Origin: Herbiconiux gentiana
GTDB taxonomy: Bacteria; Actinomycetota; Actinomycetes; Actinomycetales; Microbacteriaceae
Reading direction: 5' to 3'
Assembly (NCBI RefSeq): GCF_024978135.1
Contig: NZ_JANTEZ010000002.1
Span: forward strand, 310,001-374,000
DNA: 64,000 bases
The position numbers and the translations under genes are program-made. The notes under the pieces were generated by a model. The model did no database searches. It saw nothing but the letters and a program-made list of their open reading frames with translations, and had not been told where the DNA came from. Shown piece after piece: positions 18,253 through 57,696 of the stretch; positions within the stretch are counted from its first letter, which is position 1; each line of letters starts with the position of its first letter.

Positions 18253-18300
18253 CCGACTTCCCTCCCTGCATCACCACCCCACCCCACAGAAAGAGAAACC

Positions 18301-28121: not shown

Positions 28122-28676
28122 ATGCGCCCGAACAACCGCACCGCGATCTTGGACGCCGCCGTGCGGGTCGTCACCCGCGACGGCCTGCGCGGCCTGACCC
28201 TCGAGGCCACCGCCGAGGAGGCCGGCCTCACCCGCGGCGGCATGATGTACCACTTCCGCGACCGCGGCGCCCTCGTGCACGCGCTCAACGAGCACCTCGC
28301 CCGCGAGTGGGACGCCCGCCTCGAGGCCGCCGCCGGCAAACCCGCCGAGGCCTGCACGCCGAACGAGCGCGCCGTCGCCTACACGGTCGTCACCGCATCG
28401 GAGGAGACGAACCCGGCGGAGCTCGCCCTGCTGCTCGAGGCGTCGAAGAGCCCGACCGACTCGGCCCTCTGGGACGAGGTCCAACGCCGCTGGACCCCCA
28501 CCCCGGCCGAGGCGGAGGCGGACCCGGCGGCGCTCGACCGCTTCGTCCTGCGCCTGGCGGCGGACGGCCTCTGGGCCTACGACGCCCTCAGCGGCGACCC
28601 CCTCCCGCCCGCCCTCCGCCACCGCCTCGCGGCCCGCATCACGACCCTCCTCGCCGACCCACCCTGGCATACCTGA
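28122..28676 (+). CDS. TetR/AcrR family regulator, probable repressor of the MFS pump
   Basis: 184 residues. The HTH is LTLEATAEEAGLTRGGMMYHF (about 27-46), followed by a C-terminal ligand domain. GGAGGG precedes the ATG. It is encoded downstream of the pump on the same strand with no distinct promoter seen, so it likely forms an autoregulated bicistronic unit controlled at 26573-26602. Ligand unknown. Confidence 0.88.
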   Translation: MRPNNRTAILDAAVRVVTRDGLRGLTLEATAEEAGLTRGGMMYHFRDRGALVHALNEHLAREWDARLEAAAGKPAEACTPNERAVAYTVVTASEETNPAELALLLEASKSPTDSALWDEVQRRWTPTPAEAEADPAALDRFVLRLAADGLWAYDALSGDPLPPALRHRLAARITTLLADPPWHT

Positions 28677-28700
28677 GCATTCCTCTGCTACTCTTCTCCG

Positions 28701-30683
28701 ATGAAACGTCATCATCGGATCGCGACGGCCTCGGCACTCCTCTCGGCAGTCGCCATCGCCGCGCCGGTGGCGGCGGCACCGACATGGGCGTCAAACGTGC
28801 AAGTGGACCACTTCGTCGTCACCGACGCGCCGTTCGGTGTCAGCAACGGTGTCGCGTTCGACTCGGAGTCGGGCCGGTTGCTCGCGACCGAACGCGAGAC
28901 CGACAGCGTCGTCGTCATCGACGCGACGACGGAACGCGTGATCCGCACGGTCGACGTCGGCATTAACAGCGTGAAGGACTGGCCGCAGGCGATCGGCATA
29001 GACGAGGCCGGCCGCCGGGCCTACGTCCTGAATTCTCAGTCCGACTCGGTCTCCGTAATCGACCTGACCTCGTTCACGGTCGTTCGGGAGATCGCACATG
29101 ACGTTGTTCGCGGCATCGGTGACTCGCCGGGCTCGATCGCGTTCGATCGCACGCGCCACCTGGCTTACGTCACGAATTTCGGGAACGGACCGGGTCAAGG
29201 GTCGGTCTCCGTCATCGACACCATGACCATGACGGTCGTGACCGTGATCCCACACGATTCGGCCAGCGGGATCGGCAGCGGGGTGCGGGACATCGCGGTC
29301 GACGAGACCCTGCATCGCGCCTTCGCGGCCAATGGGCAGGACGGCACGGTCTCAGTCATCGACACCACCACGAACACCGTGATGAAAGTCATTCCGAAAG
29401 GACCGACGTCGATTCCCACGCCGCCCCATTCGATCGCCGTCGACCAGGAACGACATCGTGCATTCGTCGCCAACACCATCGACGGCACCATCTCGGTCAT
29501 CGACACCTCGACCCTGACCGTCGAGACCGTGCTGCACGACGTCATCTCAGCGGAACCGGGGGATCTCGTCGTCGACCCCGTCGGAGATCAGCTCTGGGTC
29601 ACCTCGAATATGCCCGGCAACTCCGGGGAGGCCTCAGCGATCGATCTGCGGTCTTTGAAGGTGCTCGCCCGGGTCGGCGTCACCGCGGCGACCCGATCGA
29701 TCACGATCGATGCCGACGACCGGCGGGCCTTCGCGGTCCATGGCACCCGGCTCGGATCTGTCTGGGATTTGGATACGACGGCGGCGGTGTCGCGGCGGAG
29801 TGGGACGGATCGGTTCGGGACGTCGGCGGCGCTGTCGGCGTCGGAGTTCGCAGTCGGGGTGGGGGTCGTGTACGTGACCTCGGGGGAGAACTTCCCGGAC
29901 GCGCTGTCGGCCTCGGCGGCGGCAGGACGGTGGCAGGGCCCGGTGCTGCTCGCGACGCGGGACGGGATCCCGCCGGCGGTGGGGGTCGAGCTCGCTCGAC
30001 TGAAGCCCAAGAGGATCGTGGTGGTCGGCGGCACCAGCGCCATCGGCGCCGAGGTCGAGCGACAGCTCGGCACGTACGGCCCGGTGACACGCTTAGCGGG
30101 GGCCGATCGGTTCGAGGTGTCGGCGGCGGTGTCGAAAGATGCTTTCAAGGACGGCGCCGCCATCGTCACGATCGCGTCGGGCGAGAACTTTCCCGATGCG
30201 CTGTCGGGGGGAGCGGTGGCCGGGCATGACGGTGGGCCGCTGCTGCTCGTGCGGCGGGACGGCATCCCCGCCGCGATCAAGACGGAGCTGGCGCGGTTCA
30301 AGCCTGACAAGATCCGAGTGCTCGGGGGCGTCAACGCCGTCGGGGAGGCGGTGGCGGCGGAGCTGGCGACGATCGCGCCCGTCGTCCGCAGCAGTGGGGC
30401 CGACCGGTTCGCGACGTCGGCCGCCGCGTCCGCCGACGCCTTCCCCGCGAACACCGATGTCGTCTACGTCGCCGCGGGAACGGCCTTCCCCGATGCGCTC
30501 TCCGGGGGCCCGGTCGCCGCACCGCACCTCGCCCCTGTGCTGCTCGTGCGACCCGACGCGATCCCGTCGGCGATCGACACCGAGCTGAAACGCCTGAACC
30601 CGAAGCGCATCGTGGTGCTCGGCGGGCCCAACGCCGTCACCGGCGCCGTCTACGAACAGCTCCGCGCCTACACCGGGCACTGA
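28701..30683 (+). CDS. Secreted YncE-like beta-propeller protein with three CWB2 cell-wall-binding repeats
   Basis: 660 residues. A Sec signal peptide (residues 1 to about 29, cleavage near APTWA) is followed by about seven blades of the YncE/NHL-like type (about 35-355), each showing a phrase like SVSVIDTTTNTV. Three CWB2 repeats fill about 362-660; each starts with a phrase like RRSGTDRFGTSAAL and contains GENFPDALSA. CWB2 repeats anchor proteins to anionic cell-wall polymers, so this is a surface propeller, perhaps for adhesion or ligand binding. TACTCT (28689-28694) ends exactly six bases before the ATG. The first half is less GC-rich than its neighbours. Confidence 0.88.
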   Translation: MKRHHRIATASALLSAVAIAAPVAAAPTWASNVQVDHFVVTDAPFGVSNGVAFDSESGRLLATERETDSVVVIDATTERVIRTVDVGINSVKDWPQAIGIDEAGRRAYVLNSQSDSVSVIDLTSFTVVREIAHDVVRGIGDSPGSIAFDRTRHLAYVTNFGNGPGQGSVSVIDTMTMTVVTVIPHDSASGIGSGVRDIAVDETLHRAFAANGQDGTVSVIDTTTNTVMKVIPKGPTSIPTPPHSIAVDQERHRAFVANTIDGTISVIDTSTLTVETVLHDVISAEPGDLVVDPVGDQLWVTSNMPGNSGEASAIDLRSLKVLARVGVTAATRSITIDADDRRAFAVHGTRLGSVWDLDTTAAVSRRSGTDRFGTSAALSASEFAVGVGVVYVTSGENFPDALSASAAAGRWQGPVLLATRDGIPPAVGVELARLKPKRIVVVGGTSAIGAEVERQLGTYGPVTRLAGADRFEVSAAVSKDAFKDGAAIVTIASGENFPDALSGGAVAGHDGGPLLLVRRDGIPAAIKTELARFKPDKIRVLGGVNAVGEAVAAELATIAPVVRSSGADRFATSAAASADAFPANTDVVYVAAGTAFPDALSGGPVAAPHLAPVLLVRPDAIPSAIDTELKRLNPKRIVVLGGPNAVTGAVYEQLRAYTGH

Positions 30684-30700
30684 CCGCGGTCGGCCCGGCG

Positions 30701-31510
30701 TCAGGCGAGGGTGTCGGCGTAGGACCTGAGGGCGTCGCGCACGAACGCCGCGCCCGCGGGGCCGCCGTAGTTGGCGGCGAAGCGGTCGTCGGCGACGTAG
30801 AGGTCGGCGAGACCGCGGAAGTAGTCGAGGTCGGGGTGAGCGGGGGCGCCGGGGTGGGATGCGTCGTCGGGCTGGGCTGTGTCGCCGGGGTGGGTGGAGG
30901 CGCCGGGGGTGCCCGAGATGGTGGCGAGCCAGGCGACGTGGCGGCGGGCCAGGGTCTGCGCCTCCGGGCCCGTGGGGTCGAGGGCGCGGGCCGCCGCGGC
31001 GCGCCAGTCGGCGTTCAGGGTGGCGAGACGCTGCTGCCAGGCGGCGCGCGCATCCGGGGTCATCGACGACCACCAACCGCTTCCCGCCGCGGCCGCCGGG
31101 GCGCCCCAGCGCGACTCCACCTCCTCCTCGTAGCGGGTGGGGTCGAAGCCGTCGAACATCGTCTCGGGCATGAGGGTTCCTCCTTCGTCCAGGGTGTCGA
31201 TGGTGGTCTGCACCGACGCGATCTGCCGGTCGAGCCGGGAGCGTTCGCGTCGCAGGTGGTCGAGGTGACGGCGGAGGGCGGCGGGAGCATCCGTCGACTG
31301 ATCGAGCAGCCGGGCCACCTCGCCGAGCCCGACGCCGAGCCCGCGCAGCAGCAGCACACGCTGCAGGCGCACGAGGGCCGCCTCGTCGTAGTGGCGGTAA
31401 CCGTTCGCGCCGATGCGGCTCGGCCGCAGCAGGCCGATGCGATCGTAGTGCCGCAGCGTGCGGCTGGTGATGCCGGTGAGGCGGGCCACCTCGGTGATCG
31501 ACCTGTCCAT
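30701..31510 (-). CDS. MerR family regulator with TipAS-like effector domain
   Basis: 269 residues. The MerR HTH occupies 1-70 (ITSRTLRHYDRIGLLRPSR), a coiled coil follows (about 75-110), and the C-terminal about 125-265 resembles the TipAS drug-binding domain. In TipA-type regulators this domain captures thiopeptides or other peptides and activates the protein's own promoter. A 27-residue Thr/Pro/His/Gly/Asp insert (about 200-226) with short repeats interrupts the domain. GGAGG precedes the ATG. Its promoter has the 19-bp spacer and palindrome expected for MerR autoregulation. Convergent with the propeller gene. Confidence 0.85.
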   Translation of the reverse strand: MDRSITEVARLTGITSRTLRHYDRIGLLRPSRIGANGYRHYDEAALVRLQRVLLLRGLGVGLGEVARLLDQSTDAPAALRRHLDHLRRERSRLDRQIASVQTTIDTLDEGGTLMPETMFDGFDPTRYEEEVESRWGAPAAAAGSGWWSSMTPDARAAWQQRLATLNADWRAAAARALDPTGPEAQTLARRHVAWLATISGTPGASTHPGDTAQPDDASHPGAPAHPDLDYFRGLADLYVADDRFAANYGGPAGAAFVRDALRSYADTLA

Positions 31511-31648: not shown

Positions 31649-33511
31649 ATGGCCCCCTTCCGCCGCCGTCGACGTGACGACGATCAGCGTGAGCCCCTGC
31701 ATCCGAGCCCCGCGGCCCCCGATGCGGCGGGCGCGGTCGCGTCGCGCCGCGCGTTCCTCAAGGCCGCCGCCATGGGAGCCGCCGGAGCAGCCGCCGCGGG
31801 CATCGGCGGAGCGGCCATCGGCGCGGGCGTCTACGCGCAGGAGTCGAACCTCGATTTCGCGCCCGAGACGCAGCAGCAGAAGCCCGGCTTCGAGCACCTC
31901 GTGGTGCTGATGTACGAGAACCGCTCCTTCGACAACGTGCTCGGCTGGCTCTACAAGAACGAAGAGCTGAAGGCCGGCCAGACGTTCGAGGGCCTGCACC
32001 AGGGCCGCCGCTCGAACCCCGTGCCCGGCACCGACGACGAGGTCGAGGCGCGCCCCTACTCGGGCTCCACCGACGAGATCATGCAGAGCCCCAACCCCGA
32101 CCCCGGCGAGGAGTACTCGCACGTCAACACCCAGCTCTTTCAGCGCGTCGACCCCGTCGACAACCGCGACCTGCACGCGAACGGCCTGAGCTACCCCTAC
32201 AACGCGCCCGGCCCGAACGACCAGCCCACCATGAAGGGCTTCGTCGAGGACTACATCATCAACTACCGCGAGATCACGAAGAACAAGAAGGAGCCCGGCC
32301 GCAAGGAGTACGAGACGGCGATGGGCGGCTTCACGCCCGAGATGCTGCCGGTCTTCTCGACGCTCGCGAAGAACTTCGCCGTCTTCGACCACTGGCACAG
32401 CGCCGTCCCGTCGCAGACCTTCTGCAACCGCCTGTTCTTTCACGCCTCCACCTCGCACGGCTACGTCACCAACAAGGGCGACGGCGGCTACGACAAGTGG
32501 CTCGACGCCTCGAAGGCCGACGCGCCCACCATCTTCAACCGGCTTCAGGATGCGGGGCTCACCTGGCGCGTCTACTACGACGCCGCGCAGCTGGTCTCCA
32601 TGACGGGCGTGCTGCACGCGCCCGTGCTCGAGCCGTACTGGAAGTCGCACTTCCGCGTGATGGAGCAGTTCTACGACGACGTGGCGAACGGCGACCTGCC
32701 CGACTACGCGTTCATCGAGCCGCGCATGGTCTACAACCACAACGACATGCACCCGCCGCACGGCACCCTGCGCGAGAGCGACGACGTCACCGACGACGGC
32801 GACGTGGTGATCGACGGTGCGCTGTCGGATGCTCGGGCCGCCGATGCCCTGTTGCACGCCGTCTACTCGGCCATCCGCACGAGCGACTCGGCCTCGGGGT
32901 CGAACGCGATGAACACGATGCTCTTCGTCACCTTCGACGAGCACGGCGGCACCTTCGACCACGTGCCGCCGCCCTCGGCGGTGCCGCCGTCGACCGGCGA
33001 CCCGGGCGAGATGAACTTCACGTTCGACCGCCTCGGCTGCCGTGTGCCGGCCATCGCGATCTCGGCGTACACGGCGAAGAACACCATCGTGAACGAGCAG
33101 ATGGATCATGGCTCGGTGATCGCCACCCTGACGAAGCTGCACGGGCTGAAGCCGCTGACCCGGCGCGACGCCGCGTCGCGCGACATGTTCGACGCCGTGA
33201 ACCTTACGGCGCCGCGGCCGGCCGCCGAGTGGCCGCAGACCATGCCGCAGTACTCGCCGCCGAACCCCGAGGTCAGCTTCGACGGAACATCCGAGGCGCA
33301 GCGCATCAAGCCGATCAGCAATCCGGCGAAGGGGCTGCTCGGGCTGCTGATCGCGAAGTTCGGCGTCAAGGGCCAGGCCGAGCCGCAGACCTACGCCGAG
33401 GCGTACGCGACGCTGATGGAGACGCAGAACGCCCAGGGCCAGCTCTTCGGCACCCTCGACGCGGTCGACGGCACACCCCGAGCCACGCCCACCCCCGCCC
33501 CCACGTCCTAG
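31649..33511 (+). CDS. Tat-exported phosphoesterase (phospholipase C / acid phosphatase family)
   Basis: 620 residues. The twin-arginine signal is SRRAFLK at 32-38, followed by an Ala/Gly-rich hydrophobic stretch. The phosphoesterase domain starts with VVLMYENRSFDNVLG, the family's metal-site signature, and contains FVTFDEHGGTFDHVPPP near residue 430 with further metal ligands. Family members hydrolyse phosphatidylcholine, sphingomyelin or simple phosphomonoesters, so the substrate is open. Exported folded via Tat. TAACGT (31637-31642) ends six bases before the ATG, consistent with a leaderless transcript. A large hairpin follows the stop. Confidence 0.9.
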   Translation: MAPFRRRRRDDDQREPLHPSPAAPDAAGAVASRRAFLKAAAMGAAGAAAAGIGGAAIGAGVYAQESNLDFAPETQQQKPGFEHLVVLMYENRSFDNVLGWLYKNEELKAGQTFEGLHQGRRSNPVPGTDDEVEARPYSGSTDEIMQSPNPDPGEEYSHVNTQLFQRVDPVDNRDLHANGLSYPYNAPGPNDQPTMKGFVEDYIINYREITKNKKEPGRKEYETAMGGFTPEMLPVFSTLAKNFAVFDHWHSAVPSQTFCNRLFFHASTSHGYVTNKGDGGYDKWLDASKADAPTIFNRLQDAGLTWRVYYDAAQLVSMTGVLHAPVLEPYWKSHFRVMEQFYDDVANGDLPDYAFIEPRMVYNHNDMHPPHGTLRESDDVTDDGDVVIDGALSDARAADALLHAVYSAIRTSDSASGSNAMNTMLFVTFDEHGGTFDHVPPPSAVPPSTGDPGEMNFTFDRLGCRVPAIAISAYTAKNTIVNEQMDHGSVIATLTKLHGLKPLTRRDAASRDMFDAVNLTAPRPAAEWPQTMPQYSPPNPEVSFDGTSEAQRIKPISNPAKGLLGLLIAKFGVKGQAEPQTYAEAYATLMETQNAQGQLFGTLDAVDGTPRATPTPAPTS

Positions 33512-33526
33512 CGCGCATCCGTCGCT

Positions 33527-33590
33527 CGATCGAGCCGTCGCAAATCGCCCTCTGGCGGGCCTGAGAGGGCGATTATCGACGGCTCGATCG
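33527..33590. terminator. Large intergenic hairpin between convergent genes
   Basis: Arms 33527-33553 and 33564-33590 pair over 27 positions with two mismatches, leaving a 10-base loop. It separates the phosphoesterase and glyS stops and probably ends transcription from both sides. Its length, beyond a normal terminator, suggests a REP-like repeated palindrome. Confidence 0.8.
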
Positions 33591-33615
33591 CGCGCGGCGG
33601 GGGTGCGCCCGTGGG

Positions 33616-34998
33616 CTACGCCCCGACGAGGCGCTCGGCGAGGTAGCCCGTGAGGCGGTCGAGCGAGACCCGCTCCTGCGCCATCGAGTCGCGCTCGCGC
33701 ACGGTCACCGCGTTGTCCTCGAGCGAGTCGAAGTCGACGGTGATGCAGAAGGGCGTGCCGATCTCGTCCTGGCGACGGTAGCGGCGGCCGATGGCGCCGG
33801 CGTCGTCGAAGTCGACGTTCCAGTTCTTGCGCAGGTCGGCCGCGAGGCTGCGCGCGAGCGGCGACAGCGCCTCGTTCCGCGACAGCGGCAGCACGGCGGC
33901 CTTGACCGGAGACAGGCGCGGGTCGAGCTTCAGCACGGTGCGCTTGTCGACGCCGCCCTTGGTGTTCGGTGCCTCGTCCTCGTGGAACGAGTCGACCAGG
34001 AACGCCATCAGCGACCGCGTCAGACCGGCGGCCGGCTCGATGACGTAGGGCGTCCAGCGCTCGCCCGTGGTCTGGTCGAAGTACGACAGGTCGGTACCCG
34101 AGGCCTTCGAGTGCGTGGTGAGGTCGAAGTCGGTGCGGTTCGCGACACCCTCGAGCTCCCCGAACGCGCTGCCCGTGAAGCCGAAGCGGTACTCGATGTC
34201 GACCGTGCGCTTGGAGTAGTGCGACAGCTTCTCCTGCGGGTGCTCGAACAGACGCAGGTTCTCGGGGTCGATGCCGAGGTCGGTGTACCAGCTGAAGCGC
34301 TCGTCGATCCAGTACTGGTGCCACTGTTCGTCTTCACCCGGCTTGACGAAGAACTCCATCTCCATCTGCTCGAACTCGCGGGTGCGGAAGATGAAGTTGC
34401 CGGGCGTGATCTCGTTGCGGAAGCTCTTGCCGATCTGGCCGATGCCGAACGGCGGCTTCTGCCGCGAGCTGTTCAGCACGGCGTTGAAGTCGACGAAGAT
34501 GCCCTGCGCGGTCTCGGGCCGCAGGTAGGCCATGCCGCCCTCGTCGTCGACGGCGCCGAGGTAGGTCTTCATCAGCCCCGAGAAGTTCTTCGGCTCGGTC
34601 CACGAGCCGGGCTGGCCGGTGTCGGGGTCGCGAATGTCGGCGAGGCCGTTGACCGGCGGATGCCCGTGCTTCTCCTCGTAGGCCTCGAGGAGGTGATCGG
34701 CGCGATAGCGCTTGTGCGTGTGCAACGACTCGACCAGGGGGTCGGAGAACACCTCGACGTGGCCCGAGGCCTCCCACACCTGGCGCGGCAGGATGACCGC
34801 TGAGTCGAGCCCCACGACGTTGTCGCGCGACTGCACCATGAACTTCCACCACTGGCGCTTGATGTTCTCCTTCAGCTCCACGCCGAGGGGGCCGTAGTCC
34901 CAGGCCGACCTGGTGCCGCCGTAGATCTCTCCGGTCGGGAAGACGAAGCCCCGGCGCTTGGCGAGGGCGATGACGGAATCGAGACGGGATGCAGGCAT
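33616..34998 (-). CDS. glyS: Glycyl-tRNA synthetase (class II, eukaryote-like single chain)
   Basis: Charges tRNA-Gly with glycine in the cytoplasm. 460 residues, the usual size of the dimeric actinobacterial form. Class II motif 2 is visible as [21 protein letters not shown] and motif 3 as [14 protein letters not shown]; an anticodon-binding domain occupies the last about 110 residues ([14 protein letters not shown]). I chose ATG 34998 ([18 protein letters not shown]) because homologues begin there; upstream in-frame codons are not conserved-looking. Confidence 0.95.
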
Positions 34999-35077
34999 GA
35001 AGGCTCCGGGATATCTCCGCGCGGCCGGCTGCTCGCGCTGGATCGCCACCGATTCTACCGGGGAGCCACGGGGCACC

Positions 35078-35100
35078 CCGAACTCAGGAGGCCTTGGAGG
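35078..35100. repeat. Direct repeat, left copy (duplicate of the ku 3' end)
   Basis: CCGAACTCAGGAGGCCTTGG continuing to AGG. It matches 35676-35698 at 22 of 23 positions. Read on the minus strand it still spells the last codons of ku, Ser-Lys-Ala-Ser-stop, although the ku gene itself lies 600 bases away. Confidence 0.88.
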
Positions 35101-35104
35101 TCCC

Positions 35105-35674
35105 ATCCGATTACTCATTCCGCTGGCTGTCGCTTCAAACTACGCTTCCGACATAATTGATGAATTCTCAGGCGTCACGTGGGTGCACTATGCCCAGGCG
35201 TACGTTCAATCCGACGACGACACCGAGCTCGACGTCGACGGAGCCTTCGCCGACCAGAAGAATGGCCTCTGTGGGGCGGCCGTCGCCGGATCGGTCGTCC
35301 TCACGACGGGACTCCAGACCGGTGACGTCGGGCTCCGGGTCCTGATCCACGATTCCGAGCCTCCTGCGCCGGATCCCACCTGGGAGGACGTGGTCGAATT
35401 CCCATTCACCGCGACAGGTGCGACGGTCGAGCTCGTCGACTTCGAGGGAGATGTCGTCTGCGTAATCCCCCTCGACACGGGAGATTTCCGCGCCCGATGC
35501 AGCGCGACGGGTATGGACGAGGGACATGCGCTCGACACGACAGAGGAGGATGAGATCTCCCCGGACCATTACCTTCTCGAGTTCTGGCCGCACCCCACCG
35601 AACCCGATCGCGTCCTCCGCACCGCGAGCGCCCTTGCCAGGAGGTGGAACTCGACTCGGGGAACTGCTGAGTGA
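35105..35674 (+). CDS. Hypothetical protein in a segment flanked by direct repeats; start codon unclear
   Basis: About 189 residues if read from the first codon after the left repeat. The core ([20 protein letters not shown], then WEDVVEF, and the ending [16 protein letters not shown]) recalls small acidic actinobacterial proteins of unknown function that I have seen near toxin or mobile loci. No ATG, GTG or TTG exists where the protein should begin: in-frame ATC 35105 is preceded by GGAGG, the next conventional codon is GTG 35183, and ATG 34997 lies across the glyS start. The gene may use a rare start or have lost its 5' end. It is less GC-rich than its neighbours. The stop lies one base before the right repeat. 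Possibly an immunity- or defence-type orphan; unproven. Confidence 0.5.
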
Positions 35675-35675
35675 A

Positions 35676-35698
35676 CCGAACTCAGGAAGCCTTGGAGG
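35676..35698. repeat. Direct repeat, right copy (3' end of ku)
   Basis: The genuine 3' end of ku with its stop codon, matching 35078-35100 except at one base. The pair brackets the hypothetical gene almost exactly. Confidence 0.88.
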
Positions 35699-36587
35699 CC
35701 TTCTTCGCGGCGGGCTTCTTCTTCGCGGGGGCCTTGGCAGTGGCTTTCTTCGCGGGCGCGTCCTCGGAGTCGTCGGAAGCATCCGCCTTCGGCCCCGCCG
35801 CACCGCGGCTCTTGTCGACCGACCGCCTCAGCGCCTCCATCAGATCCAGCACCTCGCCGCCATCCCCGTCGTCGGGCGAGCGCCCGAACGTCTCGTCGGT
35901 GTCGACCGAGTCGCCCTGCGCCAGCTTCGCGTCGATCAGCGTGCGCAGCTGCTCCTGGTAGTCGTCGGTGAACTTCTCGGGCTCGAAGTCGCCCGCGAAC
36001 TGGTCCACCAGCGACATCGCCATGTCGAGCTCCTGCGACGACACCCGCGTCGGCTCGTCAAGCGCCGGGAACGCGGCCTCGCGCACCTCGTCGCCCCAGA
36101 GCAGCGTCTGCAGCACCAGCACGTCGCCGCGCACCCGCAGCGCCGCCAGCCGCGTCTTCTGCCGCAGCGCGAAGTGCACCACGGCCGTGCGGTCGGTGGT
36201 CTCGAGCGTCTTGCGCAGCAGCGCGTAGGCCTTCGGAGACTTCGAGTCGGGCTCGAGGTAGTAGCTCTTGTCGAACATGATCGGGTCGATCTGTTCGCTC
36301 GGCACGAACTCCACGACCTCGATCTCGCGGCTCTTCTCCTCGGGCAGCGACGCCAAGTCGTCCTTGGTCAGGATGACCGTGCGCTCCCCGTCGTCGTAGG
36401 CCCGCGCGATGTTCTGGTACTCGATGATCTCGCCGTCGATCTCGCACCGCCGCTGGTACCGGATGCGCCCGCCGTCGGCGTCGTGCACCTGGTGCAGCGC
36501 GATGTCATGGTCCTCGGTCGCGCTGTAGACCTTCACCGGCACGTTGACGAGGCCGAACGTGATGGCGCCCTTCCAGATCGATCTCAT
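35682..36587 (-). CDS. ku: Ku protein, non-homologous end joining
   Basis: Homodimeric ring protein that binds DNA double-strand ends and recruits LigD. 301 residues; the beta-barrel core spans about 1-260 (MRSIWKGAITFGLVNVPVK at the start), and the C-terminus is a flexible Lys/Ala-rich tail (PAKKKPAAKK) like those that help Ku bind or thread DNA in other Actinobacteria. It is divergent from ligD, with 45 bases between the starts. TCTAAT on its strand ends five bases before the ATG, suggesting a leaderless message. Its last codons are duplicated 600 bases downstream. Confidence 0.95.
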   Translation of the reverse strand: MRSIWKGAITFGLVNVPVKVYSATEDHDIALHQVHDADGGRIRYQRRCEIDGEIIEYQNIARAYDDGERTVILTKDDLASLPEEKSREIEVVEFVPSEQIDPIMFDKSYYLEPDSKSPKAYALLRKTLETTDRTAVVHFALRQKTRLAALRVRGDVLVLQTLLWGDEVREAAFPALDEPTRVSSQELDMAMSLVDQFAGDFEPEKFTDDYQEQLRTLIDAKLAQGDSVDTDETFGRSPDDGDGGEVLDLMEALRRSVDKSRGAAGPKADASDDSEDAPAKKATAKAPAKKKPAAKKASKAS

Positions 36588-36632
36588 ACCTGATTAGACC
36601 GCGGATCGGGGCTTTCCGGCTAGGGGCGCGCA

Positions 36633-39179
36633 ATGCAGGATGAAGGCATGGCGACCTCGAGCGCGAACGAGCAGACCGTGACGGTGGGCGGCCACCGCCT
36701 GCGCATCTCCAATCTCGACAAGGTGCTCTACCCCGAGACGGGCACCACGAAGGCGGATGTCCTGCGGTACTACGCCGAGATCGCGACCGTGCTCGTCCCC
36801 CACGCCCGCAACCGGCCGGCCACGCGCAAGCGCTGGGTGCACGGGGTGGGCAGTGACGAGCATCCGGGTCAGGTGTTCTTTCAGAAGAACCTCGACGAGG
36901 GCACCCCCGACTGGGTGCGGCGGGTCGAGGTGCAGCACTCCGACCACGTGAACGTCTACCCGCTCGTCAACAACGCCGCCACGCTCGCGTGGCTGGCGCA
37001 GATCGCGGCGCTCGAGATCCACGTGCCGCAGTGGCGGGTGGATGCGCACGGCCGCCGCAAGAACCCCGACCGTTTCGTGATCGACCTCGACCCGGGTGAG
37101 GGCGCGGGTCTGCCCGAGTGCGTCGAGGTCGCGAAGCTGGCGCGCGCGATCCTCACCGGCATGGGACTCGACCCGGTTCCGGTGACGAGCGGCAGCAAGG
37201 GCATCCACCTCTACGCGGCGCTCGACGGCTCGCAGACCTCCGACCAGGTGTCGGCCGTGGCGCACGAGCTGGCGCGCGCACTGGAGGCCGATCATCCGGA
37301 GCTCGTCGTCAGCGACATGAAGAAGTCGCTGCGCACGGGCAAGGTGCTGGTCGACTGGAGCCAGAACAACGGCAACAAGACGACCATCTGCCCGTACTCG
37401 CTGCGCGGGCGGTCGCGGCCGACGGTCGCGGTGCCGCGCACCTGGCGCGAACTGGCGTCGAAGAACCTGCGCCAGCTCGAACTCGACGAGGTGCTGAAGC
37501 GGATGCGCACCCGGGACGATCCCCTGGCCGAAAGCGCTGAGGCACCCGGCGCCGTCGAAGCGCCCGCGGGCGAATGGCACTCGAACAGATCCGCCGATGA
37601 CCAGCCTGATGCGCATCCCACCGCCTCGTCGGCCACCGACCGCCTCACCACCTACCGGGCCAAACGCGACGGCACCAAGACCCCCGAGCCGGTGCCGGCG
37701 GACACCCCCGCGTCGACCGACGGCCGCAGCTTCGTCATCCAGGAGCACCACGCCCGCCGGCTGCACTGGGACTTCCGGCTGGAGCACGACGGAGTGCTCG
37801 TCTCCTGGGCGCTGCCGAAGGGCGTACCCGACGACCCTGGCCAGAACCACCTCGCCGTGCAGACCGAGGACCACCCGCTCGAGTACGGCACCTTCGAGGG
37901 CAGTATTCCCGCCAGGGAATACGGTGCGGGCACGGTGACGATCTGGGACTTCGGGAAGTACGAGCTCGAGAAGTGGCGCGACGGCAAGGAGATCATCGTC
38001 TCGCTGCACGGGCAGCCGTCGGGCGGGCTGGGCGAACCGCGCAAGGTGGTGCTCATCCACACCGGGGGTGAGCGGGGGAAGGACAACTGGTTGATCCATC
38101 GCATGCGCGCTGGAGCTGAAAGCGACGATCCGGCGGATCGTCGCCGCGACGCCAGCGCCGAGCGGCCAGCCGCTCGGGCTCGCCAGAACGCCTCGTCGCC
38201 TGAACGACCAGGCCGGGAGATCAAGCCGATGCTCGCCACCCTGGCGGCCCCGGCCGACGTCGAATCCGACGAAGATGCCTACGCGTTCGAGATGAAGTGG
38301 GACGGCATCCGCGCCATCGCTCGCGTCGACCGCGGCGCCGTCACCCTGCACACCCGGAACGGCAACGACGTGACCCCGGCCTACCCCGAGATCACCGAGG
38401 CGCTGGCGCAGCTCTACCCCGACCGCTCGCTCGTGCTCGACGGCGAGGTCGTCGCCCTCGACAAGGCGGGCCGGCCGAGCTTCGGTCGCCTGCAGCAGCG
38501 CATGGGCCTGTCGAAGCCGCGCGACGTCACCGCGGCGCGCGCGCAGGTCGCGGTCGACCTGATGGCCTTCGACCTGCTCGAGCTCGACGGCACCTCGCTC
38601 GTGAAAGAGGGCTACGACGAACGGCGACGGATGCTCGCCGACACCCTGCCCGCCGACGAGGGCCCCCTGCACCTCCCGCCCGCGGTCGACGGCGATCTCC
38701 AGCATGCGCTCGACGCGAGCCGCACTCTCGGCCTCGAGGGCGTGATGGCGAAGCGCCGCGACAGCACCTACTCGACGACCCGCTCGCGCGCCTGGTTGAA
38801 GCTCAAGCACCACCTCGCGCAGGAGGTCGTGATCGGCGGCTGGCGCCCCGGGCAGGGTCGCCGGGCCGCCCAGATCGGCTCGCTGCTCGTCGGTGTGCCC
38901 GACGCCGACGGGGTGCTGCAGTACGTCGGCCGGGTCGGCACGGGCTTCTCCGACCGCGACCTGACGGCGATCGCGTCGCGCCTGTCGCCGCTCACCCGTA
39001 AGACCTCCCCCTTCGCCGACGTGCCCGCAGCGGATGCCCGCGACGCCGTCTGGGTCACGCCCTCCCTCGTCGGCGAGGTCTCCTTCGCCGAGTGGACCTC
39101 CACGGGCCGGCTCCGCCAGCCCTCCTGGCGCGGCTTCCGCTCCGACAAGTCCCCCGCCGAGGTGGCGCGGGAGGGGTGA
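36633..39179 (+). CDS. ligD: Multifunctional ATP-dependent DNA ligase LigD (POL-PE-LIG)
   Basis: End-processing and sealing enzyme of bacterial NHEJ, 848 residues with all three domains in the mycobacterial order. The polymerase/primase domain (about 15-290) has the metal pair DLDPGEG (Asp151, Asp153) and SGSKGIHLYA. The 3'-phosphoesterase domain (about 365-490) shows EHHARRLHWDFRLEHDG. The ligase domain (about 530-848) has adenylated Lys555 in EMKWDG and the OB-fold part near VVIGGWRPGQGRR. Linkers at about 295-360 and 492-530 are low-complexity. ATG 36633 has TAGGGG six bases upstream; ATG 36648 preceded by GAAGG is an alternative. Partner of the divergent ku gene. Confidence 0.95.
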   Translation: MQDEGMATSSANEQTVTVGGHRLRISNLDKVLYPETGTTKADVLRYYAEIATVLVPHARNRPATRKRWVHGVGSDEHPGQVFFQKNLDEGTPDWVRRVEVQHSDHVNVYPLVNNAATLAWLAQIAALEIHVPQWRVDAHGRRKNPDRFVIDLDPGEGAGLPECVEVAKLARAILTGMGLDPVPVTSGSKGIHLYAALDGSQTSDQVSAVAHELARALEADHPELVVSDMKKSLRTGKVLVDWSQNNGNKTTICPYSLRGRSRPTVAVPRTWRELASKNLRQLELDEVLKRMRTRDDPLAESAEAPGAVEAPAGEWHSNRSADDQPDAHPTASSATDRLTTYRAKRDGTKTPEPVPADTPASTDGRSFVIQEHHARRLHWDFRLEHDGVLVSWALPKGVPDDPGQNHLAVQTEDHPLEYGTFEGSIPAREYGAGTVTIWDFGKYELEKWRDGKEIIVSLHGQPSGGLGEPRKVVLIHTGGERGKDNWLIHRMRAGAESDDPADRRRDASAERPAARARQNASSPERPGREIKPMLATLAAPADVESDEDAYAFEMKWDGIRAIARVDRGAVTLHTRNGNDVTPAYPEITEALAQLYPDRSLVLDGEVVALDKAGRPSFGRLQQRMGLSKPRDVTAARAQVAVDLMAFDLLELDGTSLVKEGYDERRRMLADTLPADEGPLHLPPAVDGDLQHALDASRTLGLEGVMAKRRDSTYSTTRSRAWLKLKHHLAQEVVIGGWRPGQGRRAAQIGSLLVGVPDADGVLQYVGRVGTGFSDRDLTAIASRLSPLTRKTSPFADVPAADARDAVWVTPSLVGEVSFAEWTSTGRLRQPSWRGFRSDKSPAEVAREG

Positions 39180-39267
39180 GTGCACGTTCGTGCGGATTCC
39201 TGGTCACGACCGGGGCGGAGTGGTAGCTTCACGACAGATTCAAGGCCAGACAATCGAGGAGGATCTC

Positions 39268-39414
39268 ATGACCGACAAGCACCACGAGCACCACGACCAC
39301 GAGGCGCGCGGCGAGCGCGACGGCGAGTACACCGACACCGAGAAGGAGAACGTCAACGTTCCCGAGCCGGAGTCGGGCGAGTACACCGACAGCGTCATCC
39401 CCGGCGACGAGTAG
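39268..39414 (+). CDS. Small acidic, His-rich protein of unknown function
   Basis: 48 residues, starting MTDKHHEHHDHEARGERDG, with GEYTD occurring twice and a net strongly negative charge. The start is supported by an excellent GAGGAGG site eight bases ahead of the ATG. A palindromic hairpin follows the stop. Homologues in related Microbacteriaceae seem likely from memory but I cannot verify this. The His cluster could bind metal. It follows ligD but has its own ribosome site. Confidence 0.7.
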   Translation: MTDKHHEHHDHEARGERDGEYTDTEKENVNVPEPESGEYTDSVIPGDE

Positions 39415-39444
39415 ATAACACGCCCCACCGAAAAGACGTTTAAC

Positions 39445-39469
39445 GAGGGGCGGGAATATCCCGCCCCTC
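39445..39469 (+). terminator. Hairpin after the small acidic gene
   Basis: Perfect 10-bp stem, GAGGGGCGGG and its complement, with loop AATAT. No T-tract follows. It lies just before the promoter of the APC permease, so it would insulate that gene. Confidence 0.75.
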
Positions 39470-39476
39470 ACTCGAC

Positions 39477-39504
39477 TTGACAGTGGGTTGCCCGCGAGTA
39501 GTGT
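39477..39504 (+). promoter_or_regulatory. Promoter of the APC permease
   Basis: TTGACA (39477-39482), 16-base spacer, TAGTGT (39499-39504). Transcription would begin at about 39511, essentially at GTG 39513, so there is no room for a leader. Confidence 0.8.
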
Positions 39505-39512
39505 TCTCACTC

Positions 39513-41546
39513 GTGGTCAACGAAACCCGCTCGGCGAAACGCTGGTTGATCGGCGATCCACTGCCGAGCGACAAGCTCGAAGGCCAGCTCCTCCCTAAGC
39601 GCCTCGCGCTCCCCATCTTCGCCAGCGACCCGCTCTCCTCCGTGGCCTACGCGCCGCAGGAGCTGCTGATGATCCTGCTGATCGGCGGCCTGGCGTTCCT
39701 CACGCTCGCCCCCTGGGTCGCGGCGGCGGTCATCCTGCTGCTCGTGGTCGTGGTGGCCTCCTACCGGCAGCTGGTCAAGGCCTACCCGAGCGGTGGCGGC
39801 GACTACGAGGTCGCGCACAAGAACCTCGGCGAGAAGGCCGGCCTCGTGGTCGCCTCGGCCCTGCTCGTCGACTACGTGCTCACCGTGGCCGTCTCGGTCG
39901 CCTCGGGCGTCGACAACATCATCAGCGCCATCCCGCAGCTGAACCCGTTCCGGGTCGAGCTCGCGGTCGGCTTCGTCATCCTGCTGATGGCGGTGAACCT
40001 CCGCGGTGTGCGCGAGTCGAGCAAGGCCTTCGCCATCCCGACCTACATCTTCGTGGGCAGCGTCGCCCTGATGATCGTCACCGGCCTCGTGCGCACCGCC
40101 CTCGGCGACGCCCCCGTGGCCGAGTCGGCCGGCTTCGACGTCAAGGCCGAGCAGCTCACCCAGGCCGCGATGGTGCTGCTGCTCCTCCGCGCCTTCTCGA
40201 GCGGATGCTCGGCCCTCACCGGTGTCGAGGCCATCTCCAACGGCGTGCCCGCGTTCCGCACCCCCAAGATCAAGAACGCCCAGCGCACGCTGGTGCTGAT
40301 GGGCTCCATCGCCATCTGCCTGTTCGCCGGACTCACCGCGATGGCGCTGATCTCGAACGTGCACTACGCCGAGAACGCCTGCCACCTGATCGGCTTCGCC
40401 GACTGCGCCACCACTCCCCAGCGCAGCCTCATGGCCCAGGTCGCGGCGGCCACCTTCGGCAACAACTCGATCCTGTTCTTCGTCATCCAGGCCGCCACCG
40501 CCGCCGTGCTGCTGCTGGCGGCCAACACCGCCTTCAACGGCTTCCCGCTGCTCGGCTCGGTGCTGGCGAAGGACGCGTACGCCCCCAAGGCCATGCTCAC
40601 CCGCGGCGACCGCCTCGTCTTCTCCAACGGCATGATCCTGCTGGCCCTGGCGGCGACCGCCATCCTCGTGGTCTACCAGGCCAGCCTCACGCAGCTCATC
40701 CAGCTCTACATCATCGGCGTCTTCGTCTCGTTCACCCTGGGCCAGACCGGCATGGTGAAGCACTGGCTGACGATGCTGAAGAACGGATGCGCGGACCGCG
40801 GTGCCGTCTACCGCTCCCTCGCGATCAACGCCGTCGGCGCCGTCTTCACCGCCGTGGTGCTGATCGTCGTCACGATCACGAAGTTCACCCACGGCGCCTG
40901 GCTGGTGTTCGCGATCATGCCGGTGCTGTTCATCCTGATGATGGGCGTGAACCGTTACTACCGCGACGTTAACAAGGAGGTGGAGGTCGACCCCACCACC
41001 ACCTTCGGCTCCTCGGGCGACCACGCGATCGTGCTGGTCGGCCGTATGCAGAAGCCCGTTCTCAAGGCCCTCGACTACGCGATCGCCGCCCGCCACGACT
41101 CGATCGAGGCGGTGCACCTCTCGATCGACGAGGAGCAGACCTCGCAGCTCGAGCAGGACTGGCAGAACATGAACATCGAGGTGCCGCTCAACATCATCGA
41201 GTCGCCCTACCGCGACGTGGCGGTGCCGCTGGCGAAGTACATCATGAAGCACCGGGCCGAGCACGGCTCCGAGGTCGTCACGGTGTACACACCCATCTAC
41301 ATCGTGGGCCACTGGTGGGAGTCGATGCTGCACAACCACAAGGCCCGCCGCATCCGCAAGAAGCTGATGCTCGTGCACGGCGTGACCATCGCCCTCGTGC
41401 CATGGCTGCTCGACTCCTCCGAGCTGCTCTACGGCCGCCGTTCGCGCCCGCTGCCGGGCCAGGAGCGACGCGGGGAGCCCGTGCGTCCGGTGCCCAGGCG
41501 ACCCCACTCGGGCGAGCCCGCGGCGCACAAGCGGATGCGCGGCTGA
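39513..41546 (+). CDS. APC superfamily permease, KimA-like
   Basis: 677 residues: about twelve membrane helices (about 30-480), then a long cytoplasmic domain containing HAIVLVGRMQKPVLKALDYA, a universal-stress-like fold. The N-terminal LALPIFASDPLSSVAYAPQE is typical of the APC group that includes KimA (YdaO), a K+/H+ symporter in Bacillus. K+ uptake is therefore plausible but amino acid transport cannot be excluded. GTG 39513 is chosen because the promoter places the transcript start at or next to it. The C-terminus is basic and Pro/Arg-rich. The orphan kdpDE pair elsewhere in the window adds to a K+ theme. Confidence 0.82.
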   Translation: MVNETRSAKRWLIGDPLPSDKLEGQLLPKRLALPIFASDPLSSVAYAPQELLMILLIGGLAFLTLAPWVAAAVILLLVVVVASYRQLVKAYPSGGGDYEVAHKNLGEKAGLVVASALLVDYVLTVAVSVASGVDNIISAIPQLNPFRVELAVGFVILLMAVNLRGVRESSKAFAIPTYIFVGSVALMIVTGLVRTALGDAPVAESAGFDVKAEQLTQAAMVLLLLRAFSSGCSALTGVEAISNGVPAFRTPKIKNAQRTLVLMGSIAICLFAGLTAMALISNVHYAENACHLIGFADCATTPQRSLMAQVAAATFGNNSILFFVIQAATAAVLLLAANTAFNGFPLLGSVLAKDAYAPKAMLTRGDRLVFSNGMILLALAATAILVVYQASLTQLIQLYIIGVFVSFTLGQTGMVKHWLTMLKNGCADRGAVYRSLAINAVGAVFTAVVLIVVTITKFTHGAWLVFAIMPVLFILMMGVNRYYRDVNKEVEVDPTTTFGSSGDHAIVLVGRMQKPVLKALDYAIAARHDSIEAVHLSIDEEQTSQLEQDWQNMNIEVPLNIIESPYRDVAVPLAKYIMKHRAEHGSEVVTVYTPIYIVGHWWESMLHNHKARRIRKKLMLVHGVTIALVPWLLDSSELLYGRRSRPLPGQERRGEPVRPVPRRPHSGEPAAHKRMRG

Positions 41547-41679
41547 GCTTCGGCTGGACGCCACCCGTCGCCCGCCCGGATGCGGGATGGCCGCGTGCTA
41601 AACTCGCATTCGATTTCGTAGTTTATTCGTCTCATCCCGGGCGGCAGAGCCCCCGGCCCGAATCGTGAGGGGGTCTCGC

Positions 41680-41892
41680 ATGGGGCGTGGCCGTCAGAAA
41701 GCCAAGCACACGAAGGTCGCTCGCGAGCTGAAGTACTTCAGCCCCGACACGAACTACTCGGCGCTGGAACGCGAGCTCACGGGCAAAGCCGGTGAGCCCG
41801 ACTACTCGAAGTGGATCGAGGAGGACGACGACTCCGACGACGCGTTCGAGCCGACGGCCTACGAGGCGACCGACGAGCAGAAGCTCGCGTAG
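41680..41892 (+). CDS. DUF3073 family protein
   Basis: 70 residues beginning MGRGRQKAKHTKVARELKYF, the conserved signature of DUF3073, with an acidic C-terminal half (WIEEDDDSDDAFEP). Widespread in Actinobacteria; function unknown. AGGGGG precedes the ATG, and a rho-independent-like hairpin follows. Confidence 0.92.
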   Translation: MGRGRQKAKHTKVARELKYFSPDTNYSALERELTGKAGEPDYSKWIEEDDDSDDAFEPTAYEATDEQKLA

Positions 41893-41928
41893 CGCCCTAG
41901 CCAGCTCTCGAAGCACCCAGGCATCGAG

Positions 41929-41954
41929 GAAAGTCCGACTCCGGTCGGGCTTTC
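41929..41954 (+). terminator. Terminator hairpin after the DUF3073 gene
   Basis: GAAAGTCCGAC (41929-41939) pairs with GTCGGGCTTTC (41944-41954), one G-U pair, four-base loop, followed by GTCGTTT. It lies between convergent genes. Confidence 0.85.
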
Positions 41955-41972
41955 GTCGTTTAAGGCGCTTGG

Positions 41973-42356
41973 CTAGGCCCGCGGGCCCTCGTCGCGAACC
42001 TGCACGAACTCCACGTCGTCGCCCGGCTCGGGCGCGTCGTGCTCCTCGTACTCGGCGGCGACCGTGCGCGCCCGCTTCGAGCTGGCCCGGTCGACCAGGA
42101 TGGCCGCGAGCGCACCCAGCGCCACGAACACCGCCGCGAGGAAGATGCCGGTGAAGCCGAACACCTGCAGCTGTGTGAACTGCTCCGTCTCGGGGAACGC
42201 GAAGGTGAGGATGAGCGCGACGATCACGCCGACCACGAGGCCGACGAGCATGAAGCGGTAGTAGCGCGGGGCGCGCCGCACCGTCACCGAGGACTCGGCG
42301 CTCGGGGCGCCGGTCGGCCGGGCGGATGCGGTGCTGTCGTCGGGCTGCTGACTCAC
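41973..42356 (-). CDS. Small membrane protein of unknown function
   Basis: 127 residues with two predicted helices (FMLVGLVVGVIVALILTFAF and a second at about 70-90), an N-terminal Ser/Thr/Pro-rich region and an acidic C-terminal tail. No family recognised with certainty; similar two-helix proteins sit beside purD in related genomes as far as I recall. GTG 42356 is favoured because GACAAT (42363-42368) ends six bases upstream; GGAGG overlaps that spacer and is too close to act as a normal ribosome site. Confidence 0.75.
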   Translation of the reverse strand: MSQQPDDSTASARPTGAPSAESSVTVRRAPRYYRFMLVGLVVGVIVALILTFAFPETEQFTQLQVFGFTGIFLAAVFVALGALAAILVDRASSKRARTVAAEYEEHDAPEPGDDVEFVQVRDEGPRA

Positions 42357-42411
42357 CCCTCCATTGTCCCCCACCCGGCTGGGCGCGGGGCGCGAAACGG
42401 CCGATCCGGGT

Positions 42412-42771
42412 TCAGCGCACCGGCACGTGCGCCGAGAGGTCGGCCCGCTGCCCCGAGGCGTGGATGCGCGCGGTCGCGAGACCGTCGGCCCACGCGAGCG
42501 CGCCGGTGGCGAGCTGCAGCCAGGTCCGCGCATCCATCTCGACCACGTTGGGCGGGGTGCCCCGGGTGTGGCCCGGCCCCTCGATGCACTGCACGGCCCC
42601 GAACGGCGGCACCCGCACCTCGACCGAGTTGCCCGGTGCCTCGTCGGCGAGGCGCTGCAGCAGGTAGCGGACAGCGGATGCCCGGGTGTCCCGGCTCGCG
42701 CCGTCGAAGTCGCCCGTGGCGGCGCTGACCGCCGCGGCCCCCAGCTCGTCGGAAATGCGTGCCTTGCCCAT
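42412..42771 (-). CDS. Sterol-carrier-type (SCP2-like) family protein
   Basis: 119 residues. VEVRVPPFGAVQCIEGPGHTRGTPPNVVEMDARTW (shown in part: PPFGAVQCIEG, PNVVEMDARTWLQLATG) matches the short actinobacterial 'sterol carrier family' protein commonly encoded next to purD. A lipid-binding role is assumed from the family name only. TAGCGT (42778-42783) ends six bases before the ATG. Divergent from purD. Confidence 0.8.
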   Translation of the reverse strand: MGKARISDELGAAAVSAATGDFDGASRDTRASAVRYLLQRLADEAPGNSVEVRVPPFGAVQCIEGPGHTRGTPPNVVEMDARTWLQLATGALAWADGLATARIHASGQRADLSAHVPVR

Positions 42772-42825
42772 GCCCCCACGCTAGCCCGACCCGCGGCCGT
42801 CGGCGGTGCTCGGTAGGCTGTGGGC

Positions 42826-44139
42826 GTGAAGATCCTGGTTCTCGGCTCCGGCGCGCGCGAGCACGCCATCATCACGGCGCTGCGGCGCGAGGGCGACGGG
42901 CCGGAGGGCACGGTGCACGACATCGTCGCGGCCCCGGGCAACGCGGGCATCGCCGCCGACGTGCCGGTGGTCGCGCTCGACGCGAACGATCCCCGCGCCG
43001 TCACCGCGTACGTTTTCGAGAACGACGTGCAGTTCGTCGTGATCGGGCCCGAGGCGCCGCTGGTAGCCGGGGTGGCCGACGCACTGCGCACGCGGGGCAT
43101 CCCCGTCTTCGGGCCCGGCCGCGCCGCCGCCGCCCTCGAGGGCAGCAAGGCCTTCGCGAAGCGCGTGATGGACGAGGCGGGCGTGCCGACGGGCGGAGCC
43201 TCGACGGCGTCCACCCTCGCCGAGGCCGAGGCCGCCCTCGCCGCGTTCGGCGCCCCCTACGTCGTCAAGGCCGACGGTCTCGCCGCGGGCAAGGGCGTGC
43301 TCGTCACGAGCGACCTCGTGGCGGCCACCGCGCACGCCCGGCACTGGCTGCAGCACGGCGACGTGCTGATCGAGGAGTTCCTCGACGGCGAGGAGGTGTC
43401 CCTCTTCCTGCTCTCCGACGGCCACTCGGTCGCCCCGCTCTCGCCCGCGCAGGACTACAAGCGGCTCGCCGACGGCGACGAGGGCCCGAACACCGGCGGC
43501 ATGGGCGCCTACTCGCCGCTGCCCTGGCTCGCCGAGCGCTTCGGCAGCGAGACCGCGTTCGTCGACGAGGTGATCGAGACCATCGCCTTGCCGACGGTGC
43601 GCCGGCTGGCCGCCGAAGACACCCCGTTCATCGGCCTGCTCTACTGCGGCCTCATCCTCACGCCCGGGGGCATCCGCGTGATCGAGTTCAACGCGCGCTT
43701 CGGCGACCCCGAGACGCAGGTCGTGCTGCCCCGGCTCGAGACGCCGCTCAGCACCCTGCTGCTCGCCGCCGCGACCGGCACGCTCGAGGCGCAGCCGCGC
43801 CCCGTCTTCTCCGACGAGGTGGCGGTCACCGTCGTGCTCGCCAGCGAGAACTACCCCGGCTCGCCCGTCACCGGCCGCGCCATCACGGGGCTCGAGAACG
43901 CCACAGGCGCCGAGGGCGTGAGCGTGCTGCACGCGGCCACCGAGCTCGACGAGGTTCCGGATGCGCAGGGTCGGCCCGTGCTCCGGGCCACCGGCGGGCG
44001 GGTTCTGAACGTGGTGGCCTCCGGGCCCTCGTTCGCCGTGGCGCGTGATCGCGTGTACGGGGTGCTGGAGGGCATCCACCTCGAGGGCGCGCAGTACCGC
44101 CGCGACATCGCGGCCCGCGTCGCCGAGGAGGTGCGGTGA
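42826..44139 (+). CDS. purD: Phosphoribosylamine-glycine ligase (GAR synthetase)
   Basis: Second step of purine synthesis: joins phosphoribosylamine and glycine with ATP. 437 residues. It starts with KILVLGSGAREHAI and has the ATP-grasp core with KADGLAAGKGV, SPAQDYKRLADGDEGPNTGGMGAYSP (in part) and EFNARFGDPETQ. GTG 42826 is preferred over GTG 42820 because TAGGCT (42814-42819) then sits exactly six bases upstream and the protein begins at the conserved KILVLG. It is coupled to purC through TGATG. Confidence 0.96.
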   Translation: MKILVLGSGAREHAIITALRREGDGPEGTVHDIVAAPGNAGIAADVPVVALDANDPRAVTAYVFENDVQFVVIGPEAPLVAGVADALRTRGIPVFGPGRAAAALEGSKAFAKRVMDEAGVPTGGASTASTLAEAEAALAAFGAPYVVKADGLAAGKGVLVTSDLVAATAHARHWLQHGDVLIEEFLDGEEVSLFLLSDGHSVAPLSPAQDYKRLADGDEGPNTGGMGAYSPLPWLAERFGSETAFVDEVIETIALPTVRRLAAEDTPFIGLLYCGLILTPGGIRVIEFNARFGDPETQVVLPRLETPLSTLLLAAATGTLEAQPRPVFSDEVAVTVVLASENYPGSPVTGRAITGLENATGAEGVSVLHAATELDEVPDAQGRPVLRATGGRVLNVVASGPSFAVARDRVYGVLEGIHLEGAQYRRDIAARVAEEVR

Positions 44140-45047
44140 TGGTCTCGGTGAGCAGCGCATCCGGCCCTGCAGCGGGCCCGGTCGCACCCGGCTGGCGGCA
44201 CGTCTACAGCGGCAAGGTGCGCGACCTGTTCGTGCCCGACGACACGGCTCCGGATGCCCGTCCCGCCGCGCTGCTCGTCGTCGCGAGCGATCGCGTGAGC
44301 GCGTTCGATCACGTGCTCGAGCCGGGCATCCCCGGCAAGGGCGAGCTGCTCACCGGGCTGAGCCGCTGGTGGTTCCACCAGCTGCGCACGGTGCCGAACC
44401 ATCTCATCGCCTCGCGCGACGGGCTGCCGCCGGTGCCCGAGGAGCTCGAGGCGCGGTCGATGGTGGTCGAGTCGCTCGAGATGTTCCCGGTGGAGTGCGT
44501 CGTGCGCGGCTACCTCTCGGGCAGCGGCTGGAAGGAATATCAGGCGTCGCAGAGCGTGTGCGGCATCGAGCTGCCGGCCGGGCTGCACGACGGCGACCGG
44601 CTGCCGCAGCCCATCTACACGCCCGCCTACAAGGCGCCGCTCGGCGAGCACGACGAGAACATCAGCTTCGAGCGCACGGTGGAGCTGATCGGGCTCGCCG
44701 ACGCCACCGCGCTGCAGGAGCTGTCGCTGGAGCTCTACGAGCGGGCGGCGGCGATCGCCGAGGCGCGGGGGGTCATCCTGGCCGACACGAAGTTCGAGTT
44801 CGGGCGCAGCCCCTCGACGGGCGCGATCACGCTGGCCGACGAGGTGCTCACGAGCGACTCGTCGCGCTACTGGGATGCGGCGGCCTACGACTCGGGCGAG
44901 CGCACCGCGAGCTTCGACAAGCAGATCGTGCGCAACTGGCTGGCAGCGAACTGGGACCAGGTGGGCCCGCCGCCGACGCTGCCGCAGGAGATCGTGGAGC
45001 GCACCTCGGCGCGGTACGCCGAGCTGCTGGAGCGCCTGACGGCCTGA
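44139..45047 (+). CDS. purC: Phosphoribosylaminoimidazole-succinocarboxamide (SAICAR) synthase
   Basis: Ligates aspartate to CAIR in purine synthesis. 302 residues, close to the long (fungal/actinobacterial) form. Landmarks are YSGKVRDLF, SDRVSAFDHVL, ECVVRGYLSGSGWKEY, and DTKFEFG with FDKQIVRNWL. ATG 44139 overlaps the purD stop (TGATG); GTG one codon earlier is also possible. GAGGAG upstream within purD serves as ribosome site. Confidence 0.96.
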   Translation: MVSVSSASGPAAGPVAPGWRHVYSGKVRDLFVPDDTAPDARPAALLVVASDRVSAFDHVLEPGIPGKGELLTGLSRWWFHQLRTVPNHLIASRDGLPPVPEELEARSMVVESLEMFPVECVVRGYLSGSGWKEYQASQSVCGIELPAGLHDGDRLPQPIYTPAYKAPLGEHDENISFERTVELIGLADATALQELSLELYERAAAIAEARGVILADTKFEFGRSPSTGAITLADEVLTSDSSRYWDAAAYDSGERTASFDKQIVRNWLAANWDQVGPPPTLPQEIVERTSARYAELLERLTA

Positions 45048-45106
45048 GCCGCCGGGCCCTCCCCCGGCCCTTCTCCGTTGTCGGTGGTGGCGGGTAGCGT
45101 CGCTGC

Positions 45107-45811: not shown

Positions 45812-45863
45812 CGGCAGGGCCTGCGCTGTCACCAGCCGGGCGTCAGGCGTCAGGCATCGGGCG

Positions 45864-46703: not shown

Positions 46704-46706
46704 GCG

Positions 46707-57693: not shown

Positions 57694-57696
57694 CGC

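Follow-up and report, generated by a model that had tools for sequence, protein, structure and literature searches.

A single-gene insertion within a 23-bp target duplication at the 3' end of ku in Herbiconiux gentiana

The insert between glyS and ku

The stretch of the Herbiconiux gentiana genome considered here (64,000 nucleotides of contig NZ_JANTEZ010000002.1, assembly GCF_024978135.1, positions 310,001 to 374,000; hereafter the window) carries, between glyS and ku, a 575-bp insert with a single gene, called gene X below, that is bracketed by two direct copies of a 23-bp sequence. The left copy, CCGAACTCAGGAGGCCTTGGAGG (35078–35100), and the right copy, CCGAACTCAGGAAGCCTTGGAGG (35676–35698), are identical at 22 of 23 positions; each comprises 6 intergenic bases and 17 bases of the ku end, the right copy is the one used by the working ku gene, and the single difference between them is synonymous in ku. 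The insert is made up of a 52-bp leader on the plus strand (35101–35152), gene X on the same strand (35153–35674; 173 codons and the stop TGA at 35672–35674) and one further base; apart from gene X it has no gene-sized frame with relatives. On one side, ku (35682–36587, minus strand, stop codon 35682–35684) is intact, encodes 301 amino acids and converges with gene X, with 7 bp between the two stop codons; on the other side lies glyS (33616–34998, minus strand), which is divergent from gene X. The names given to ku and glyS by the initial annotation, and that of ligD, are upheld by matches to solved proteins (Ku, glycyl-tRNA ligase and LigD). The genome has one Ku match, and its LigD possesses polymerase, phosphoesterase-like and ligase parts.

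The empty site is preserved in a sister species (G003), where glyS adjoins ku with one ku end and no gene between them. Window positions 33614–35100 and 35676–46710 align to this genome and overlap there by exactly 23 bp; this is therefore a one-gene insertion with target duplication, as the initial annotation had supposed when it read the segment as a foreign-looking insertion that duplicated the ku end and proposed a search for an empty site at this junction. A further relative (G012) likewise has glyS and ku adjacent without gene X. When 16 genomes of the genus were searched for the 23-mer with up to two mismatches, it was found at two places in the window's genome and, with one mismatch, at one place in G003, and in none of the other 14. 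The left copy differs from the G003 site at one base, in the intergenic part, and both copies read CCGAAC where G003 reads CCGAAG. The ku gene is present in 15 of the 16 genomes, and the codons for its tail, KKASKAS, are found only in the window's genome and G003 among these 15. Because the letters of the repeat are shared only with G003, the duplicated letters are the host's own, and their doubling is most simply placed after the split from that species. On the empty site of G003, the left joint divides a palindrome into its halves AGG and CCT, an observation on which we build nothing.

The pair of copies stands well above chance and the DNA between them has a foreign composition, in agreement with the initial description of direct copies around one low-GC gene. 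Taken together with 400-nt flanks, the pair reaches a score of 20 (+1/−2), compared with a maximum of 12 in 54 comparisons with randomly drawn stretches. It ranks 14th among the direct-repeat pairs 150–5000 bp apart in the window, and 12 of the 13 higher-ranking pairs sit in one duplicated region at 55–60 kb. The G+C content of the insert is 62.8% against 71.8% for the window, with only 0.06% of 575-nt windows equally low or lower, and its G+C at third codon positions is 0.74, against 0.95 in ku, 0.96 in glyS and 0.92 in ligD. The reading frames of the insert include no integrase, as had been noted initially; no second copy of the insert was found elsewhere in the genome, no tRNA gene was found in the window by ARAGORN, and Rfam at gathering thresholds gave nothing over 33000–38000. 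At the other loci with homologs of gene X, some of which are weak, none of 26 has flanking repeats that score above 13, which indicates that such repeats do not, as a rule, accompany movement of the family.

Three other features of the window were recorded. Long direct repeats spaced about 2.5 kb apart at 55253–60003 seem to represent related genes duplicated in tandem. An 8.8-kb segment (13050–21842) is represented by about 54 bp in G003 and has no exact flanking repeat longer than 10 bp, and a 2-kb segment (28657–30706) is absent from G003 and has no flanking repeats, the longest exact match being 7 bp.

Gene X, its start codon and its family

The initial annotation held that gene X lacks a normal start codon and that its frame begins, cut, at the left junction; the former holds and the latter does not. 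The open frame runs from 5' of the left copy through to the TGA at 35672–35674, and homologs start at residue 18 of the frame as it opens at the junction, that is, 52 bp inside the insert. A conserved tyrosine follows the nearest ATG at a distance of 12 codons in four Microbacteriaceae homologs (L021–L024); in a fifth (L035) the same distance separates the ATG from the histidine that replaces this tyrosine, and in more distant relatives the spacing is 11–13 codons. At the 12-codon position gene X has ATA. Its start is thus a changed codon, ATA for ATG, and not a truncation by the junction. Because of this codon, gene X may, judged from sequence, be decaying or be using a rare start, while it has no internal stop and keeps the length and end of its family. 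In the tree it sits on a long branch (1.28 against a median of 0.34) without a firm place, and constraining it to either of two Microbacteriaceae groups was not rejected (approximately unbiased test, p-AU 0.255 and 0.409), so that the tree points to no one donor group.

The family is large and actinobacterial (199 of 323 candidate stretches were confirmed in one scan) and has no name in Pfam or NCBIfam; no publication on it was found in an open-access library, judged by titles and the starts of abstracts. A search of toxin/immunity and defence families had been proposed initially; with gene X, Pfam, PADLOC and NCBIfam gave nothing at E ≤ 10. No relatives were found in phage records and viral contigs, a first scan of species genomes with gene X alone gave no relative, and sequence profiles compared with PDB chains did not pick up ComJ. 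Function is nevertheless no longer blank, since gene X fits the fold of ComJ (PDB 4mqd, PF11033) over 129 of 133 residues and can be assigned to it. When PF11033 was applied to 30 relatives of gene X, one was matched, at E 0.053, below the family cut-off. In 66 of the 90 loci L046–L135 the gene X homolog is extended at its C terminus by 115 residues or more, and for four plasmid-borne proteins of this extended kind Pfam gave nothing at E ≤ 1.

Nuclease immunity as the likely function

NucA is the nuclease that ComJ inhibits, and PMC3482391 describes homologs of ComJ as the immunity proteins for toxins of the ComI (NucA) type. A comparable pairing is found among distant homologs of gene X on plasmids. 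Of the 39 plasmid records with gene X homologs, regions of 25 were viewed, by a non-random choice and with one of them unannotated. Twelve of the 24 annotated regions have a NucA/NucB gene upstream of the homolog and in the same orientation; in 11 of these no annotated gene separates the nuclease from the homolog, and in the remaining one the two are separated by an IS5 transposase gene and a small gene of opposite orientation. PF14040 is above its cut-off in all 12 nucleases, one of which is annotated only as hypothetical. The 12 cases amount to about six groups (ten cases assigned by aligned identities, one by a shared protein accession and one unaligned). By profile comparison, the nuclease-linked homologs and the gene X family form one superfamily (probability 99.9, E 4e-31), and the nuclease-linked profile matches gene X itself at 84.7 bits. 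SMI1/KNR4 genes occur in three of the plasmid regions. Streptomyces plasmids show a toxin–immunity arrangement in which NucA/NucB domains lie in the C-terminal part of proteins of very different lengths, 70–478 amino acids (L158:652-1992, L162:536-1972, L159:967-1902, L161:1637-1849), that stand ahead of ComJ-like genes; one of these nucleases is beside an RHS gene.

No PF14040 match was found in any of the 16 genus genomes or in the window, and gene X does not stand downstream of a nuclease gene. With no such nuclease in the genus, gene X would be an orphan; PMC10539506 describes orphan immunity proteins that possibly protect against incoming effectors. Taking its fold, its homologs and the absence of PF14040 together, gene X is most likely an orphan immunity gene whose product would bind and block a nuclease of the NucA/NucB type.

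Several observations weigh against this assignment. An alternative that we regard as possible though less probable is that the ComJ fold has been kept for another function, as some other binding protein. This alternative concerns function only, and its likelihood overlaps with that of any answer to the insertion question. CgnJ (PDB 6i86) fits the fold of gene X equally well, at 10% identity, and to our knowledge it is not a nuclease inhibitor. PF11033 has no match in gene X at E ≤ 10 and none in the 16 genus genomes. Nearer to gene X the pairing fades: no NucA/NucB nuclease stands beside the closest homologs in the 7 annotated regions viewed among hits H1–H9, PF14040 is present in only 2 of 26 close upstream neighbours, both from nuclease-linked plasmids, and it is absent from the 25 families listed, of 42, for 20 neighbours of Microbacteriaceae homologs. 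In one Microbacteriaceae genus (L025, L030, L031) the homolog overlaps the preceding gene by 4 bp, and in two of these three loci that gene encodes a response regulator, preceded in turn by a histidine kinase (each of the two domains occurs in two members of the neighbour scan); such neighbours suggest another role in that genus. With six divergent rows set aside, gene X also deviates at 7 of 39 columns whose conservation elsewhere reaches 90% or more, where the most divergent other row (L049) deviates at 7 of 37 and most rows at 0–3, and these changes may reflect decay or, again, another role. Against the alternative stands the nuclease pairing itself, which recurs in about six groups of distant homologs that are linked by profile to the family of gene X.

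Possible routes of entry and comparison with known systems

The explanation that we consider probable, taken as a whole, is that a foreign piece with one ComJ-fold immunity gene was captured at a break after the split from G003. That the 575-bp piece went into the 3' end of ku and that 23 bp of the target were doubled is shown by the empty site. For the mechanism we infer a staggered double-strand break, with capture of the piece during repair and fill-in of the overhangs giving the duplication; polymerase template switching would be an alternative route, and by either the piece would have entered without a mobile element of its own. As far as can be told, it is a coincidence that ku itself was the target. 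Two points count against capture at a break. In the Streptomyces scars of non-homologous end joining (NHEJ) described in PMC5869714, the inserts range from 30 bp to 18.8 kb and are endogenous, and the fill-ins are 1–4 nt, compared with which a 23-bp duplication is long for a fill-in; and no donor sequence was found.

The initial annotation had leaned towards integration of an element into the gene end, and of this reading the insertion and the duplication stand while the integrase and its attachment sites are unsupported. Such a remnant would have arisen through a tyrosine recombinase with its attB at the 3' end of ku, so that the copies would be attL and attR and the integrase would have been lost or have acted in trans. 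Direct repeats of the ku 3' end with its stop on both sides of the insert and an intact ku are what this reading expects, and the interval between glyS and ku is variable, measuring 2.4–12.5 kb in the 11 other relatives where both genes were found (L136, L139, L141–L149). However, of the 41 open reading frames called there, matching 22 Pfam families at E ≤ 1e-4, none is a recombinase (the calling was rough and may have overlooked some genes). Among the 14 relatives with ku there is no other element bounded by the same repeat, and no further ku end over a span of about 15 kb (only 3 kb in G008), the best ku-end scores of 8–14 being at the level of reversed controls (9–14). The letters of the repeat belong to this host and G003 alone, the insert has no recombinase, and gene X leaves free only 52 bp ahead of its start and 1 bp beyond its stop, a fit that is unlikely for a shrunken island. 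We therefore judge the remnant of an integrative element unlikely. The interval is a variable place in the genus, with esterase, lactonase, beta-propeller and other families.

Two further routes carry less weight. Homology-facilitated recombination with a relative that carried gene X beside ku, the left copy being the leftover ku end of the recipient, would suit the one synonymous difference between the copies, and the lower identity between G003 and G012 in ku (89.8%) than in glyS (97.2%) hints at exchange, although the ku tail is also fast-evolving. It is made rather improbable by the ku 3' end, which keeps the tail common to the window and G003 only, and by the lack of a donor with gene X at ku among 14 relatives; moreover, the first insertion would then still have to be explained, only in a different strain. 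Transposition in trans, by a transposase with a long target duplication, would account for the clean duplication, but the insert has no terminal inverted repeats (no inverted pair of at least 16 bp, and a longest exact match near the ends of 5 bp), no second genomic copy and no room for a transposase. We know of no transposase duplication as long as 23 bp, and we consider this route highly improbable.

Capture at a break remains our preferred explanation for this locus. Its extension to a general process, in which bare immunity genes are captured at breaks in actinobacteria via Ku/LigD end joining with long overhang fill-in, is speculative and, on present evidence, a long shot. If it were true, defence genes would spread without a mobile element, target duplications of about 20 bp would be its signature and the ComJ-like family would be among the genes carried in this way. 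Independently of this, the locus offers a clean one-gene transfer, with an empty site, an exact duplication and no visible machinery, and with such a case the way in which single genes enter bacterial chromosomes can be put to the test. A large actinobacterial family is also singled out by it as ComJ-like, with members that are likely nuclease inhibitors.

The scars of NHEJ in Streptomyces (PMC5869714) resemble the present case in that DNA is joined at a break by Ku and a ligase, and Ku and LigD are both present here; they differ in that their inserts are endogenous, whereas here a whole foreign gene lies in a 23-bp duplication. CgnJ belongs to crocagin biosynthesis, whereas gene X stands alone between glyS and ku. 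ComJ (Nin) of Bacillus subtilis, whose target NucA is the competence nuclease, has the same fold as gene X, and the order of its operon, nuclease then inhibitor (PMC3482391), is that of the distant members of the gene X family. In contrast, the sequence of gene X is too far from ComJ for the ComJ model, and the window's genome has no nuclease partner. A leftover of the end of a nuclease gene was not seen, by eye, in the three frames of the leader (35101–35152). The Imm-ComJ proteins of polymorphic toxin systems (PMC3482391) share with the gene X family a mostly beta fold and the pairing with a competence-type nuclease, and the likeness extends to the SMI1/KNR4 immunity genes near some plasmid homologs. 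In the table of that source, the Imm-ComJ row is without Actinobacteria while the row of the nuclease Tox-ComI has them; the gene X family could be the missing actinobacterial partner of Tox-ComI.
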